A stretch of 64,000 nucleotides of DNA, from positions 1 through 64,000 of the forward strand of contig JAIMBH010000002.1 in NCBI GenBank assembly GCA_023511485.1, in the 5' to 3' direction. Below the pieces are notes generated by a model. The model searched no databases. It worked only from the letters and a program-made list of their open reading frames with translations, and was not told the DNA's origin. This DNA is from Bacillota bacterium. Its GTDB lineage: Bacteria > Actinomycetota > Aquicultoria > Aquicultorales > Aquicultoraceae. Made by a program: the position numbers and the translations under genes. This document shows positions 23,378 through 63,658 of this stretch, piece by piece; the first letter of the stretch is position 1, and each line of letters begins with the position of its first letter.

Positions 23378-23546
23378 GAAAGCAAAGTAGGCATTGTTAA
23401 TTATTTGTTAACAAGTGTTCATTATTAATAAACACGCCTGCTTAGTGCGAGAATGCCAAATAAAACAGGCACACAGCAGAAGTTTATGTTAGAATAAGTA
23501 ATTATCCTGTGCTGCAGAATTGTTTATATTTGGTCGGTGATCCAGT

Positions 23547-24305
23547 ATGAGCGAGCTTATGAATATTGACGAGCTTACGGCTTACCTTAAGCTAAGCCGT
23601 GAAACAATAGAGGGCCTTCTTAAGTGCTGAGACTTTCCTGTGAATGATATCGGCGGTCAGAGCTGGTTTAAGAAAGAGGAAGTCGACGAATGGATGGCCA
23701 AGAAAGGTAGAAAGGCTGGTGGAGGAAGAGTGTCTCAGCTTGACATTCTTAAAGGCGATATTGATCCATTAACAAAGCGCATTGCTTTTGTAGCTATTTT
23801 GACGGCGGAGCTTGAGAAGGAGGGCTTCTCGCCGGTAGCAGGTGGCAATTATGCGGTTGAGCTTTACACGGAGGGAGGCTATAAAGCTACCAGCATAGAC
23901 CTGTTTGCCCCAGCTGATGTGCTAGATAAAACATTGCTCACCTGGGGATTTGAGAAAGAAAAAGGCGCCTTGGTGCACAAGGAGATCGGGATTACGGTAG
24001 CTTTTCTTGGCGAAAATTTAAGCCATGATCAGTTAGAGCATGTAAACCAGGTGGATGTGAATGGATTTCCGGTATATTTGCTAGGGGTCGAGGACGTTAT
24101 CGTTGCGAAACTGGCAGATCTTGTTCACCGTGGCGAATCAAGTGCATCTGCCTGGGCTGAGGAGCTTATCGAGATACACGTGAATGAGATCGACAGGGAT
24201 TATTTAAAGAAGCGTGCGGAACAGGAAGGAGTTATGGTTACGCTTCACGAAATATTGGCTGAGCTTGGATTAGAGAACAGAGAGCTATATGTTTATGAAG
24301 GGTAA
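23547..24305 (+). pseudogene. Helix-turn-helix/nucleotidyltransferase-like gene interrupted by UGA
   Basis: ATG 23547 opens a frame reading MSELMNIDELTAYLKLSRET, then TGA at 23628-23630 (codon 28), then DFPVNDIGGQSWFKKEEVDE in the same frame through 24305. Together these make one excisionase-type helix-turn-helix domain, normally LLK.GDFP at the break, followed by a domain resembling the DUF6036 nucleotidyltransferase group (IDLFAPADVLDKTLLTWGFE; YLLGVEDVIVAKLADLV). The UGA falls where a Gly is usual, so Gly-to-stop (GGA to TGA) mutation is the simplest reading. GTG 23640 could make the C-terminal part alone. Function unknown. Confidence 0.65.
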
Positions 24306-35117: not shown

Positions 35118-37025
35118 ATGGGAGCTCTGTTGCTTGGTGTGGTTACGATTGCCATCAGCCTGCTCTCCTTAATCTTACTAATCGGCACGCGTGAAAGTTT
35201 GAAGAACTTTCACGCCAAAAGATCGGTATTTATTGTTGGAGCTTGCTTAGCCATCCTTGGCATCGTAAACATGTTTGACTCTGGCGGAAAGAACACTGCA
35301 TTAAGCCCCATCGAACTCTACATAAGAATCATTACTGCTATAATTTTTTTCTTCCTTATTTATAAGGCTGTTTATGGAGAGATAAAGTTAAAGGCAAAAA
35401 GAAGGGAAAGAGAGCTTGAGGCATTAAATGACGTGGCTATGGCTGTAGGTAAATCCATGGATTTAAAGCAGGTTTTGCATAACGCTCTTACATCCGTAAC
35501 TAAAATAGGCAACTTTGGGATAGGGTTTGTATACCTTCTTAATGAAGAAACGGGCTTGCTCGAACTTGTGGCTTCATATGGCCAGATTCCCGAGCATCTT
35601 ATGAAAAAACTGGCTTATCTGAAACTTGGACAAGAAGTCTGAGGTATGGTAGCAAAGGAAGGCCGGTCGGTCTACCTGGAGGACCTTAACACCAATCCTA
35701 TAGCTCAGGAGTCTGAGATTGTGGCTGGTCTAGGTATCAGGTCTATCGCGGGTACTCCTCTTCGCTATGAAAATAGGACAATCGGAACAATAACAGTTGG
35801 ATGCACTGACGCAGGAGTAATTAGCCATGACGATAGAACGCTAATCGGATACATGGCAAATTTAATCACGACCGCAATTATAAAAGCACAGCTTTATGGT
35901 GCTGAAAGGGAAACAAGGATAAAACTTAGCGCGCTTGAAAATATATCCGAGGCTGGTTTGACTATGCTAAGCGTAGATGAACTGCTGGATGAGATTGCTA
36001 CCCGCATAGTTCAAGATACCAATATGGATTGGTCAAAGATAATCCTGCTTGGCAGGAAAAATGGAAAATTGACAGTAGAGCACAGTCCAAATAGTTATTT
36101 GCCGTTAAAAGATCGGGATTTAAATAAGGTCTATAAGCTTATAGACGACGTACTCACGGAAGAAAAGGCGCGCGTCTTAAAACGAAACGATATAAGCCAG
36201 GTCAAGGCGTATCTGGGAAGCGCAGGGATAAGGTCAATTGCCATGGTTCCGGTCAATTTGAGGCAGAATATGGCTTGCATTGTTGCAGCGGGGAAGAAGT
36301 CTGCCGATTCGTTTAGTAAGAAGGAGTTAAACCTTATTGAAACTTTAAGTTATCGTTCCGCGCTGGCAATAGAAAACGCGCTGTTATTCTCCCGTCTTGA
36401 GGGGTCATATTTAGAGACGGTTGAATCGCTTGTTAAGGCAATCGAAGCTAAAGATGAATATACCAGCGGTCACTCAGAGCACGTAGCTGCTCTGGCGAGG
36501 GAGACCTCTATTGCTTTGGGCATGACCAAAGAAGAGGCAGAGCGCATATATATGGCAGGGCTTCTGCATGATGTCGGTAAGATTGGAATCCCAAGCAGCA
36601 TATTGTACAAAACGACAAAGCTGTCGGATGATGATTACAAACAGATTAAACTTCATCCAACTAAAGGCTATGAAATTCTGGAGCCGATTAGCGGTCTTGA
36701 GGATATCGCTATGATTGTCCTGCAGCATCACGAGAGGTATGACGGTACCGGATACCCCAGCGGTCTTTGTGGTAATGATATTCTTTTGGAAGCGCGTATT
36801 CTTGCTGTTGCTGATGCCTACCAGGCGATGATATCAGATAGGCCTTACAGAAAGAGACTTCCGGTTAAAGAAGCAAAACTTGAGATACGCAGGGGCATTG
36901 GCACCCAATTTGACCCTGATGTCGCCCGGGTTTTCCTCTCGGTATTGGAGATGCAATCCAAATTGCATAAATGCGAGCGGACAAGGAGTAAAGCAGGGCA
37001 GAAGAAAGTAGCTCTGAGCTACTAG
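35118..37025 (+). pseudogene. Membrane GAF-GAF-HD-GYP protein, interrupted by UGA
   Basis: The frame begins MGALLLGVVTIAISLLSLIL, with three membrane helices, enters a GAF domain (EALNDVAMAVGKSMDLKQVL), and meets TGA at 35640-35642 (codon 175). It resumes in frame with GMVAKEGRSVYLEDLNTNPI, the rest of that GAF domain, followed by a second GAF-like domain and an HD-GYP domain (GLLHDVGKIGIPSS; QHHERYDGTGYPSG). ATG 35646 could restart translation. The break sits in the usual G.x(S/A/V)G.V loop, which is not a fixed Cys site, so this looks like a nonsense change rather than selenocysteine. If translated whole it would be a 635-residue c-di-GMP phosphodiesterase. Confidence 0.75.
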
Positions 37026-41571: not shown

Positions 41572-41910
41572 ATGGGAAGTTTGTTTCTTGTGTTAAAGGC
41601 GGCGCCGGAGCAGGAGCAGCATGCTCATTTTGTCGTAAACCTGGCTCAGGCAGCACAGGCAAAGGGGCATAAGGTTACGGTTCACGTTTTTGGAGATGGA
41701 ATCTACTATCTGGTGCCAAATATGCACATCGGACCTACAAATACTGCCGAGCTATGCGAAAAAGAGAATTCAAGCCTTATGTACTGTTTCCATAATGTGG
41801 AGCAAAGGGGCATCGTACCACTGGTCATGGAAAGTGCGAGGAAGGCATCTACTCCGGACGCATCCATGGAGTTTATTAAGCATGATAGGGTTCTTATGAT
41901 TTCGGGATGA
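41572..41910 (+). CDS. DsrE-like sulfurtransferase subunit
   Basis: This 112-residue protein has the DsrE/TusD fold: LFLVLKAAPEQEQHAHFVVN, VTVHVFGDGIYYLVPN and the reactive-Cys segment SLMYCFHNVEQRGI. Cys 71 in that segment aligns with the persulfide-carrying Cys of DsrE/TusD. It is the first of three genes of the DsrEFH type, under the promoter at 41332. DsrEFH proteins form hexamers that take sulfane sulfur from TusA. GGGAGGAG precedes the ATG. Confidence 0.82.
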   Translation: MGSLFLVLKAAPEQEQHAHFVVNLAQAAQAKGHKVTVHVFGDGIYYLVPNMHIGPTNTAELCEKENSSLMYCFHNVEQRGIVPLVMESARKASTPDASMEFIKHDRVLMISG

Positions 41911-41921
41911 GGTGATTGATT

Positions 41922-42293
41922 TTGGCCGAGCCTATAAAGTTCTGTGCAGTTGTTCGCCAACCGCCAATTGGGGAGCGAGATTCTCTAGAAATCTTGAGGT
42001 TTACTCTTGGGTTGGTGTTACTTGGTAGCCATGTCGTTGAAATTCATGCCGTTCTTGAGGGTGACGGTGTATTTCACGCACTAAACGAGCTACCGGAGAA
42101 AGTTCTTGGAAGAGACACATCAAAGATCAGTGTTGTTGACGGCATTGATTTTGATGCACTGGTCTACGTTGTGAAGGAAGATATGGAAGCGCGTGGTTTG
42201 AGCGAGGAGGATCTGCTTGAGGGAGTAAAGGTTATACCTTCAGAACAGGTATCAGGGATAATAAGCCAGGCAAAGACTACCCATTTCATGTAG
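41922..42293 (+). CDS. DsrF-like subunit
   Basis: This 123-residue protein has the DsrE-like fold (FCAVVRQPPIGERDSLEILR; FDALVYVVKEDMEARGL). At the position where DsrE carries its Cys it has VYVVKED, so it is probably a structural partner, as DsrF is to DsrE. TTG 41922 follows GAGGTG at seven bases, so it is chosen over the TTG at 41916. The gene starts 11 bp after the DsrE-like gene. Confidence 0.75.
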   Translation: MAEPIKFCAVVRQPPIGERDSLEILRFTLGLVLLGSHVVEIHAVLEGDGVFHALNELPEKVLGRDTSKISVVDGIDFDALVYVVKEDMEARGLSEEDLLEGVKVIPSEQVSGIISQAKTTHFM

Positions 42294-42323: not shown

Positions 42324-42641
42324 ATGGCGACGATATGTATTAGCGCTTTATCATCCGGCGAGACAGACCGACGTGAGCGACTCATAACTCTGATACAGGG
42401 CTTAAGCAAACCGGATGAAAAGGTAATGCTTCTGCTTTACGGAGACGGGGTTTATAACCTTGTAAACGGAAGCAAAGCGGCGGCAGAGATTACTGAAACA
42501 TCTGCAGATATCTATGTTATTGCCGGAGACGTAGAAGATCGAGGGTTAGCAGGAAAGATTATTCCTCAGGCGCAGCAGATCGATTATGATCGGGCAGTGG
42601 ATTTAATTATGGAGTCCGATCATACGGTCACGGGTGTCTGA
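42324..42641 (+). CDS. DsrH-like subunit
   Basis: This 105-residue protein has the small TusB/DsrH fold: VMLLLYGDGVYNLVNGSK and DIYVIAGDVEDRGLAGKII. The equivalent Cys region reads YVIAGDV, without a Cys. With the two genes before it (30 bp spacing, AGGAGG in front) it completes a DsrEFH-like set in which only the first subunit keeps the reactive Cys, as in a TusBCD/DsrEFH heterohexamer. Confidence 0.72.
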   Translation: MATICISALSSGETDRRERLITLIQGLSKPDEKVMLLLYGDGVYNLVNGSKAAAEITETSADIYVIAGDVEDRGLAGKIIPQAQQIDYDRAVDLIMESDHTVTGV

Positions 42642-46282: not shown

Positions 46283-47734
46283 GTGGAAGCTGTAAAAAAT
46301 TTAGAGGCGGCTGGCAAGAGTCACAGCGTTAGTAAAAGTACATACTGGGCGTTTTTGATTCTTGGGGCTCTTGCTTTGATAAGTCTCTTATACATTAGAA
46401 CCAATATTTACTATATGTATATTGTAGTTTACATATGGTTTGGCGTTGCTTATGGGATGTTGCTTCAATACGGCAGGTTCTGCATTGCTTCGGCTTCGCG
46501 AGACTTATTTGCTGCTAAAGTCCCGCGAATGGCGGTAGTCGTTTTAATGACGCTCGTATTCTTAAGCATCATACAGGCAATACTTGCAGTAACAAAAGTG
46601 TCTACCCCATTCTTTCAGCCGGTACCAGCAGGGATTCATTTACTTATAGCCGGCTTATTATTCGGTTTCGGAATGGTTATTGCAGGCGGATGTGCGACCG
46701 GATCTACATACAAGACTGGTGAGGGGCATGGAACCTCTCTCCTTGCACTCTTAGCACTTATTTTTGGTCAAGCAATATTTGTGACGTTAGGGGGTCCGCT
46801 AAATAATCTTCTTCCTCAATCCTGGGTTCAGGCGGCTGCTGCAAAAGTGCCCAGCGATAAACTCAGTTCCTGGTACGATACATATCTTATGGGTTATGTA
46901 CTTGACAAGCCCACCATCCAGTTATCTAAAACCGGTTTTATAGCCAACACTTTCCCGGGGTTCGCAAAGTACTTTGTTGGCGATGCACTTTTAAATGTGA
47001 TCTTACCGGCGGTAATCCTGCTGGTTGCAATTTATGTCTATGCTGCGAGAAAAGGTTTTATTAAAAAGAGAAGAAAGGCTAAAGGTTCAGCGGGCTTTAG
47101 TGATGAGCTTGCAGGCATCTGGAATATGCTTGTGCAGTCCAAGAAAACGATTTTTATTGGTTTTCTTATTGCGGTAACGATAGGGCTACATATTCTTGTT
47201 GCTAAAGGAATGTTGGACAAATTTGGGGCCACCAACTTCGGAGAACTGCTTGCCAGAATGGATCATAAAGAGGGGCTTACCGCTGCCGGTAAGGTATTTG
47301 ATCCAGGTTATTGGTTTATGACGACTCAGCAAACACAGCTTGGTGCCTGGCTGCTGGATAAAATCGGCCTTATTAATGTGAAAGATAGCGTATTCTTTGG
47401 TCTTTTAAACGGTATACCTGCACCGTGGGACAACCCATCACTCTGGATGCTGATCGGACTTATTTTTGGGGCAATGGTTACCGCCCTGGCCAGTAGGGAG
47501 TTTAAGTTTCATCCACCAAAAGGGGAGCTTATCGCGTGGGGACTTCTCGGCGGATTATTACTTGGAATCGGCTCTCGATTAGGTTTAGGCTGAGCGGGAG
47601 CTTTCGTTGTTAGGATCGCTGGAGGCGATCTGGGAGCCTGGGTCTATTTTATAGGCATGATTGCGGGAGCTTTCGTCGGGGTTCTGTTCTTTAACTGGTG
47701 GACGGATCGAAAGATGGCTAAGGAGATGGGCTAA
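46283..47734 (+). CDS. yeeE: YeeE/YedE-family sulfur transporter, probable selenoprotein
   Basis: A 483-residue, multi-helix membrane protein of the YeeE/YedE (thiosulfate/sulfane-sulfur uptake) family if the in-frame TGA at 47591-47593 (codon 437) is read as selenocysteine. Conserved Cys 67 (YGRFCIAS) and Cys 137 (AGGCATG) are present; the third, normally in a LGCN motif, is the TGA: RLGLG, UGA, AGAFVVRIAGGDL. The 46 residues after it continue the family pattern through FFNWWTDRKMAKEMG, so the frame is under selection. A hairpin with a G-containing loop follows the UGA. GTG 46283 follows GGGAGGG. tusA lies downstream. In the family these Cys carry sulfur through the membrane. Confidence 0.87.
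47613..47631 (+). promoter_or_regulatory. SECIS-like hairpin downstream of yeeE UGA
   Basis: GGATCGC (47613-47619) and GCGATCT (47625-47631) form a 7-bp stem (one G-U) with loop TGGAG. The loop starts 27 nt after the UGA and has G at its second position, in the range described for bacterial SECIS elements. Confidence 0.7.
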
Positions 47735-47786: not shown

Positions 47787-48038
47787 ATGGCAATGAAATT
47801 TGAGAAAACGGGCGATGGCACTTATTCACTGGATGTTTGCGGATATACATGTCCGCACCCGCAGCTTTATACTAAGAAGTCCCTGGAGAAAATGGCAGAG
47901 GGCGAGATATTGGAAGTAATCTTTGACAATCCTTCCTCGCAGGAGTCGATAACCCAGATGTGCAACGCGGAAGGCCATGAAGTAGTTGAAAGTACGCAAG
48001 ACGGTAGCAGGTTTGTAATTAAAATCGAGAAGGGCTAA
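47787..48038 (+). CDS. tusA: TusA-family sulfur carrier
   Basis: This 83-residue protein has the TusA fold with the persulfide-carrying Cys in VCGYTCPHPQLYTKKSLEKM (CPxP motif), followed by GEILEVIFDNPSSQESITQM. TusA accepts sulfur from rhodanese or desulfurase and passes it to DsrE. It starts 53 bp after the UGA-containing yeeE frame, behind AAGGAGG, so it is cotranscribed with it. A second Cys is in TQMCNAEGHEV. Confidence 0.93.
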   Translation: MAMKFEKTGDGTYSLDVCGYTCPHPQLYTKKSLEKMAEGEILEVIFDNPSSQESITQMCNAEGHEVVESTQDGSRFVIKIEKG

Positions 48039-48055: not shown

Positions 48056-48397
48056 GTGCCTACAGAGGCAGGCAGAAATACGCCGCTAACGGTTATAGCT
48101 GCTATCATGGTGTTGATATTGGCAGCATTGTTGGTTTACAGTTACTCGGGTGTCAACAAAGAAGTTGCCTCTTCATCCAAAAAACCGGCCGCTAGTGCTG
48201 AAAAAGCATCATCCAGCTCTGGTGGTGAGGCCTCATCACCAGGCTATGGCAGTAGTAATACCAGCAGCAGTGGGGCTTCATCGCCAGGCTATGGCGGGGG
48301 AGGAGCATCCGGAAGTGGTGCTAAAACCGGCGATTCCGGCAAGTCTAATGAGCAGGCTAGTGAAAATCAGGCGGCTGCACCAGGATACGGGCAATAA
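48056..48397 (+). CDS. Membrane-anchored Ser/Gly-rich protein with PGYG repeats
   Basis: This 113-residue protein has one membrane helix (residues 10-30) and a low-complexity outer part rich in Ser, Gly, Ala and Lys. The motif PGYG recurs three times (ASSPGYGSSN, ASSPGYGGGG, AAAPGYGQ). GTG 48056 follows GAGGAGGT and starts 18 bp after tusA. It is the third gene of the yeeE operon, so it may be an outer component of the same sulfur system; the function is unknown and I recognise no family. Confidence 0.7.
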   Translation: MPTEAGRNTPLTVIAAIMVLILAALLVYSYSGVNKEVASSSKKPAASAEKASSSSGGEASSPGYGSSNTSSSGASSPGYGGGGASGSGAKTGDSGKSNEQASENQAAAPGYGQ

Positions 48398-63181: not shown

Positions 63182-63658
63182 TTACCCGGCGAGTTTCTCC
63201 TCCTGTTCTTGTAGCCGTCTTAAGACATCGATTACAGGTTCGAAATCAGGCGCTTCTTCGTCTGCGTAAACATGCTCGTAAGAAATAACGCCTGCCGAGT
63301 CAACAACATAGACCACTCTTTTTTCACGCTGTTTTTCCTCACTCCAGGCATCGTAAAGCCTTCCGACGTTTCCAAACCAATCGGAAAGCAAAGGAAAGTC
63401 TATCCCAAGTTGTTCGGCAAAAGCCTTGTGCGACCACTCGCTGTCTGCACTTATACCCACGACCTGGGCGTTGAGCTGGTGTATGTCAGGAAGCATCTCC
63501 CGCACACGCAGCAGCTCGCTTGTTCAGACAGGAGAGAAATCATGAGTGTAAAATAGTAGAACTACGTTAGTTCCACGCAGGTCTGCAAAGCGGAATTGCT
63601 CGCCATTTTGATCTGGCAGCACAAAATCCGGGGCTAATTCGCCAATTTTAAGAGCCAT
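63182..63658 (-). CDS. Peroxiredoxin, probable selenoprotein (PrxU)
   Basis: This 158-residue AhpE/BCP-type peroxiredoxin starts at ATG 63658 (GGAGG upstream): MALKIGELAPDFVLPDQNGE, then LLFYTHDFSPV, then TGA at 63524-63526 (codon 45), then TSELLRVREMLPDIHQLNAQ in the same frame to the end. In the family this position is the peroxidatic Cys of PxxxT-type motifs (DFSPVCT), and Sec-containing peroxiredoxins with UT there are known. No other Cys is present, so it is a 1-Cys type enzyme. A weak hairpin follows the UGA (63487-63502). It reduces peroxides in the cytoplasm. Confidence 0.88.

Follow-up and report, generated by a model that had tools for sequence, protein, structure and literature searches.

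The 64,000-nucleotide stretch of DNA analysed here (the window) encodes a YeeE-type transporter that is probably a selenoprotein, belonging to a family already listed as having such members. The UGA at codon 437 of its gene is very likely to be read as selenocysteine (Sec). This interpretation, proposed in an earlier note on the same DNA, is supported by a complete Sec operon in the genome, by other genes in which UGA stands for Sec, by the pairing of Sec with Cys between this protein and its homologues and by the conserved tail that follows the UGA.

The yeeE frame extends from a GTG start to a TAA stop, with the TGA at codon 437 as its sole interruption (Table 1), and its product passes the gathering score of PF04143 (123.5 bits versus a cut-off of 27). 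In a phmmer comparison with solved structures, codon 437 pairs with the Cys of the GGCNIGH motif in the thiosulfate transporter YeeE (6leo), and all homologues from other genomes that align at this site carry Cys there, as the earlier note had claimed. Its further statement that the homologues read LGCN needs a minor correction in that the closest homologue reads LGCA; the corresponding sequence in the window protein is LGUAGA. When the window YeeE was aligned with 31 homologues (32 rows, with the window UGA entered as C), columns 67, 137 and 437 proved to be invariant. These are the only Cys/Sec positions in the window protein, and they match all three conserved cysteines of S. thermophila YeeE (StYeeE). 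Residue 437 had been described as the third conserved Cys, which is correct in sequence order but not in the published transport order, in which the StYeeE equivalents of residues 437, 137 and 67 are the first, second and third cysteine, respectively, with the third located at the YeeD interface (PMC11073785); Sec would thus be the entry residue. The 46 codons between the UGA and the TAA keep the family pattern down to the natural C-terminus. They share 78% identity with the closest relative, end at the same position and differ from it mostly at third codon positions.

Table 1. Coordinates of yeeE, its key codons and associated features in the window.
Feature	Position	Strand	Remarks
dsrE/tusD-like gene	41572..41910	+	
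dsrF/tusC-like gene	41922..42293	+	
dsrH/tusB-like gene	42324..42641	+	above the TIGR03011 and PF04077 cut-offs
yeeE (PF04143, Sulf_transp)	46283..47734	+	full-length, TsuA-like; 483 aa with UGA as predicted Sec
Cys67 codon	46481..46483	+	counterpart of Cys22 in StYeeE, which lies at the interface with YeeD (PMC11073785)
Cys137 codon	46691..46693	+	equals Cys91 of StYeeE
In-frame TGA, codon 437	47591..47593	+	opposite an invariant Cys, which is Cys293 in StYeeE
SECIS-like hairpin	47613..47631	+	8 bp, GGA triloop (MFE fold); loop 27 nt past the UGA
tusA-like partner gene	47787..48038	+	PF01206, CPHP motif, good ribosome-binding site
Gene for small membrane-anchored Gly/Ser-rich SPGYG-repeat protein	48056..48397	+	similar ORF in several relatives
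Sec-type peroxiredoxin gene (AhpC-TSA)	63182..63658	-	TGA 63524-63526 for the peroxidatic Cys; SPV-U-T

The genomic context of yeeE points to a role in sulfur metabolism. Of 44 loci, 43 have a TusA-like gene close to yeeE. In the window, this gene follows yeeE directly, and genes for YeeE/YedE, TusA and DsrE(FH) stand together in the synteny that characterizes dsrEFH type II or YTD clusters. In G002, the genome nearest to this one in the tree, the order dsrE-dsrF-dsrH-lipoprotein-GT-yeeE-tusA-orf3-radical SAM is kept, and part of it also in Nitrospirota. Since yeeE is thus embedded in a dsrEFH-yeeE-tusA cluster and the genome also encodes dsrA, the arrangement points to dissimilatory sulfane-sulfur import. 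The framework of thiosulfate transport in which the earlier note had placed the protein is uncertain. As a side observation, DsrE-family matches with one in-frame TGA occur in the phylum of genome G038 (G038:C32:45894-46193 and G435:C4:10507-10839); DsrE-like selenoproteins have been catalogued already (PMC13188914).

An AlphaFold2 model of the window protein (mean pLDDT 86.8) gave strong structure matches to YeeE structures only, with 6leo as the best solved one, and its sequence scores 89.4 bits against the cut-off of 400 for the TsuA equivalog NF052577. We consider a sulfur-import role likely, if less certain than Sec insertion. Compatible with Sec insertion, but unlikely, is a function as a selenium-metabolism YedE (TIGR04112/FdhT type) that moves selenium instead of sulfur. 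YedE has been linked to selenium use (PMC5322559), and the window protein yields sub-threshold matches to the YedE/FdhT and YedF models; however, its scores fall far below the curated cut-offs of TIGR04112 (75.9 versus 200) and NF033796 (118.9 versus 350), its neighbours are dsrEFH and tusA, and a relative in which SelA is not detectable (G006) has kept yeeE.

The sequence evidence for Sec decoding in this genome is strong, as the earlier note had anticipated. Contig C47 carries selD, selA, selB and a tRNA-Sec with a UCA anticodon that adjoins selB, and the SelB profile score lies above the cut-off. The SelD frame itself contains a TGA at its active (Sec) site, and two FdhA-type genes have one at the canonical formate dehydrogenase site (CARLUHSPTVAGL and QARIUHSATVAGL). 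The peroxiredoxin gene that had been noted in the window indeed shows TGA at the position of its peroxidatic Cys (Table 1), which supports the reading of UGA as Sec. Two marks of a bacterial selenoprotein are found: selA, selB, selC and selD in the same genome and, in yeeE, a UGA that lies opposite the Cys of the homologues and is followed by a conserved frame. Another tRNA of this genome also has a tRNA-Sec score (57.4 bits; G000:C21:40225-40317, equivalent to L071:10226-10318) but a GCA (Cys) anticodon, resembling the selC* tRNA-Cys described in PMC7609411.

Within the subfamily of ~480-aa proteins, the UGA is a singleton. At the thresholds used, no other UGA was found at the codon-437 site in 36 genomes of the class, among 397 sampled genomes of the phylum or among 296 genomes of the phylum of G038, and a plasmid search returned only distant YeeE matches. 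G002, whose YeeE is the closest (71%), has Cys at this site and possesses SelA. Given the isolated UGA and the Cys of this nearest relative, a Cys-to-Sec change on the window lineage would be the simplest reading.

The wider family presents a different picture, and the earlier note's claim that no selenocysteine form of this transporter had been described is not supported. A YeeE/YedE selenoprotein of PF04143 with the motif GUxSG (WP_012471001.1) is catalogued in Table 1 of PMC13188914, and a YeeE/YedE selenoprotein is also listed in PMC9312934. Our PF04143 search likewise recovered UGA-containing genes in the phylum to which a Desulfobulbaceae genome (L019/G040) belongs. They include half-size proteins of ~180 aa, eleven of which, among those fetched, have UGA in the motif GUPSG, which agrees with the catalogued GUxSG; in the one that was aligned (L153), U corresponds to the Cys293 site of StYeeE and hence to the window site. 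Three other PF04143 proteins resemble the window YeeE in having UGA at a conserved Cys motif. Two are permuted and YedE-like, with UGA in GGUNIGG (L170) and GGUGSG (L171), and differ from it in the swapped order of their two halves; the third (L172) is full-length, with UGA in KGUATS, and has it at the second Cys site rather than at the third site in sequence order.

A recent nonsense mutation, which would have turned a functional Cys codon into TGA and left a truncated transporter in the process of being lost, appears improbable. It would account for the singleton status of the UGA, require just a single base change from TGC or TGT and have a parallel in the window, where a gene with an HTH domain (see below) is also interrupted by an in-frame TGA, one that does not resemble a Sec site. 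Moreover, the sequence after the UGA would be just as well conserved if the mutation were very recent, so that some doubt about Sec remains; the downstream substitution counts are compatible with such an event, because most of the differences from the relative could have arisen before it. Yet, only one of the 180 single-base changes that would create a stop in yeeE falls at codon 437. We compared ~555 kb of the window genome with ~346 kb of one relative of the same family and retained the best frame for each region. Across the 46,606 codons that aligned, the yeeE TGA was the only in-frame stop lying deep in an alignment and flanked on either side by strongly identical sequence, in a test that genes broken at a stop in the relative as well (such as the GAF gene described below) escape. 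It falls on a Cys, and 537 of the aligned codons (1.2%) align to Cys. On visual inspection of their sequence context, the remaining stops were terminal in their alignments, lay in tails of poor conservation or belonged to alignments with low scores. The presence of UGA at canonical Sec sites in the same genome and at the equivalent site of PF04143 members elsewhere also argues against a nonsense mutation.

A sequencing or assembly error is even less probable: the genome is a draft of 58 contigs, but its conserved aligned codons contain no other error-like stop, so that an error which happened to strike a functional Cys is improbable. That an unusual tRNA inserts cysteine or some other amino acid at the UGA is barely credible, because, even though selC*-type tRNA-Cys with a UCA anticodon occur in other bacteria (PMC7609411) and the second tRNA-Sec-like species of this genome has a Cys anticodon, that anticodon is GCA and reads UGC/UGU, whereas the UCA tRNA is an ordinary tRNA-Sec beside selB and selA.

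Sec insertion at codon 437 is also compatible with the RNA structure downstream of it, which is weak evidence on its own and not decisive. The 7-bp hairpin with a G-containing loop that had been noted to begin 20 nt past the UGA was recovered exactly (47613-47619 pairing with 47625-47631, loop TGGAG) and fits the distance limits of the bacterial SECIS model. Compared with random TGAs of the window, it ranks among the strongest 1.6%, but synonymous recoding equals it in 7.8% of cases, and the Cys homologues fold similarly in this region. The accepted Sec genes of the genome are likewise unremarkable in this test, which therefore has little power. The use of SECIS statistics as proof was dropped, since the amino-acid-preserving recodings and the Cys homologues weaken them.

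Two other genes in the window contain in-frame TGAs. The first, a GAF/HD-GYP gene (35118-37025, plus strand), has a TGA at 35640-35642 in the context LGQEV-U-GMVAKEG. Its homologue in G002, which represents another genus of the same family, has TGA at the identical codon (L195/L196), and the two genes share a similar hairpin downstream of it, with the loop GGUC in both. The residue aligned to this TGA is not Cys in four alignments to solved GAF domains (3e0y and three DevS entries), and neither GAF nor HD-GYP appears by name in a review of 119 selenoprotein families (PMC13188914). On the basis of these sequences, the gene is a candidate for a new selenoprotein family and may be a more novel one than yeeE. 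The second, an HTH gene (23538-24305, plus strand), has its TGA in an N-terminal HTH_17-like domain (LLKC-U-DFP) that is missing from the G002 homologue; this TGA is probably not Sec.

If UGA 437 is decoded by the organism's own SelB and tRNA-Sec, Sec would, judging from the homologous StYeeE, replace the first, entry-side residue of the three cysteines lining the transport path. Thiosulfate or polysulfide-type sulfane sulfur, the substrate that we infer, would then meet the selenolate first and be handed on past Cys137 and Cys67 to the TusA-like protein whose gene lies downstream, from which it could pass to the DsrEFH proteins encoded upstream and then enter the Dsr pathway. More tentatively, and with somewhat less than even confidence, we suggest that Sec acts as the first relay residue of a sulfane-sulfur import route feeding TusA, DsrEFH and Dsr, and that selenolate chemistry (e.g. 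selenosulfide exchange) speeds or redirects entry.

While a Sec-containing YeeE/YedE protein of PF04143 with the GUxSG motif is already catalogued, the probable novelty lies in a full-length (483 aa) TsuA-like Sec form within the dsrEFH-yeeE-tusA cluster of a dsrA-encoding bacterium. It would extend the predicted selenoprotein family beyond half-size proteins by a full-length transporter, whose type has solved structures and a Cys relay that is understood in part. Selenium would thereby also enter a gene cluster for which a role in sulfur oxidation or disproportionation has been proposed. As related bacteria have either Cys or Sec at this site, Sec/Cys exchange offers a direct way to test what selenium does to sulfur transport. 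The gene is also a further example of a protein that would be cut short at UGA by standard annotation.

Type II or YTD clusters combining yeeE, tusA and dsrEFH are the ones proposed for these sulfur conversions (PMC13293266, PMC12998232). As described there, they resemble the window in the proximity of the YeeE, TusA, DsrE, DsrF and DsrH genes in a genome with dsrA. The window differs from the order given in these texts in that dsrEFH lies upstream, with a glycosyltransferase-like gene in between, and the complete clusters they report are from Desulfobacterota and Nitrospirota. No Sec form of the YTD-cluster transporter was reported in the literature searched. Like the window gene, the catalogued GUxSG selenoprotein is a PF04143 member with Sec predicted at a conserved Cys; the GUPSG proteins that we found are half-size (~180 aa), in contrast to the 483-aa, two-repeat window protein. 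Another close known system is that of YeeE/TsuA and YeeD/TsuB in S. thermophila (6leo, 8k1r), which shares with the window locus the fold, the three Cys positions and an adjacent TusA-type gene, whereas the two transporters differ in sequence (~21% identity in the structural match), in length (483 versus 339 aa) and in the first cysteine, which in the window protein is predicted to be Sec.
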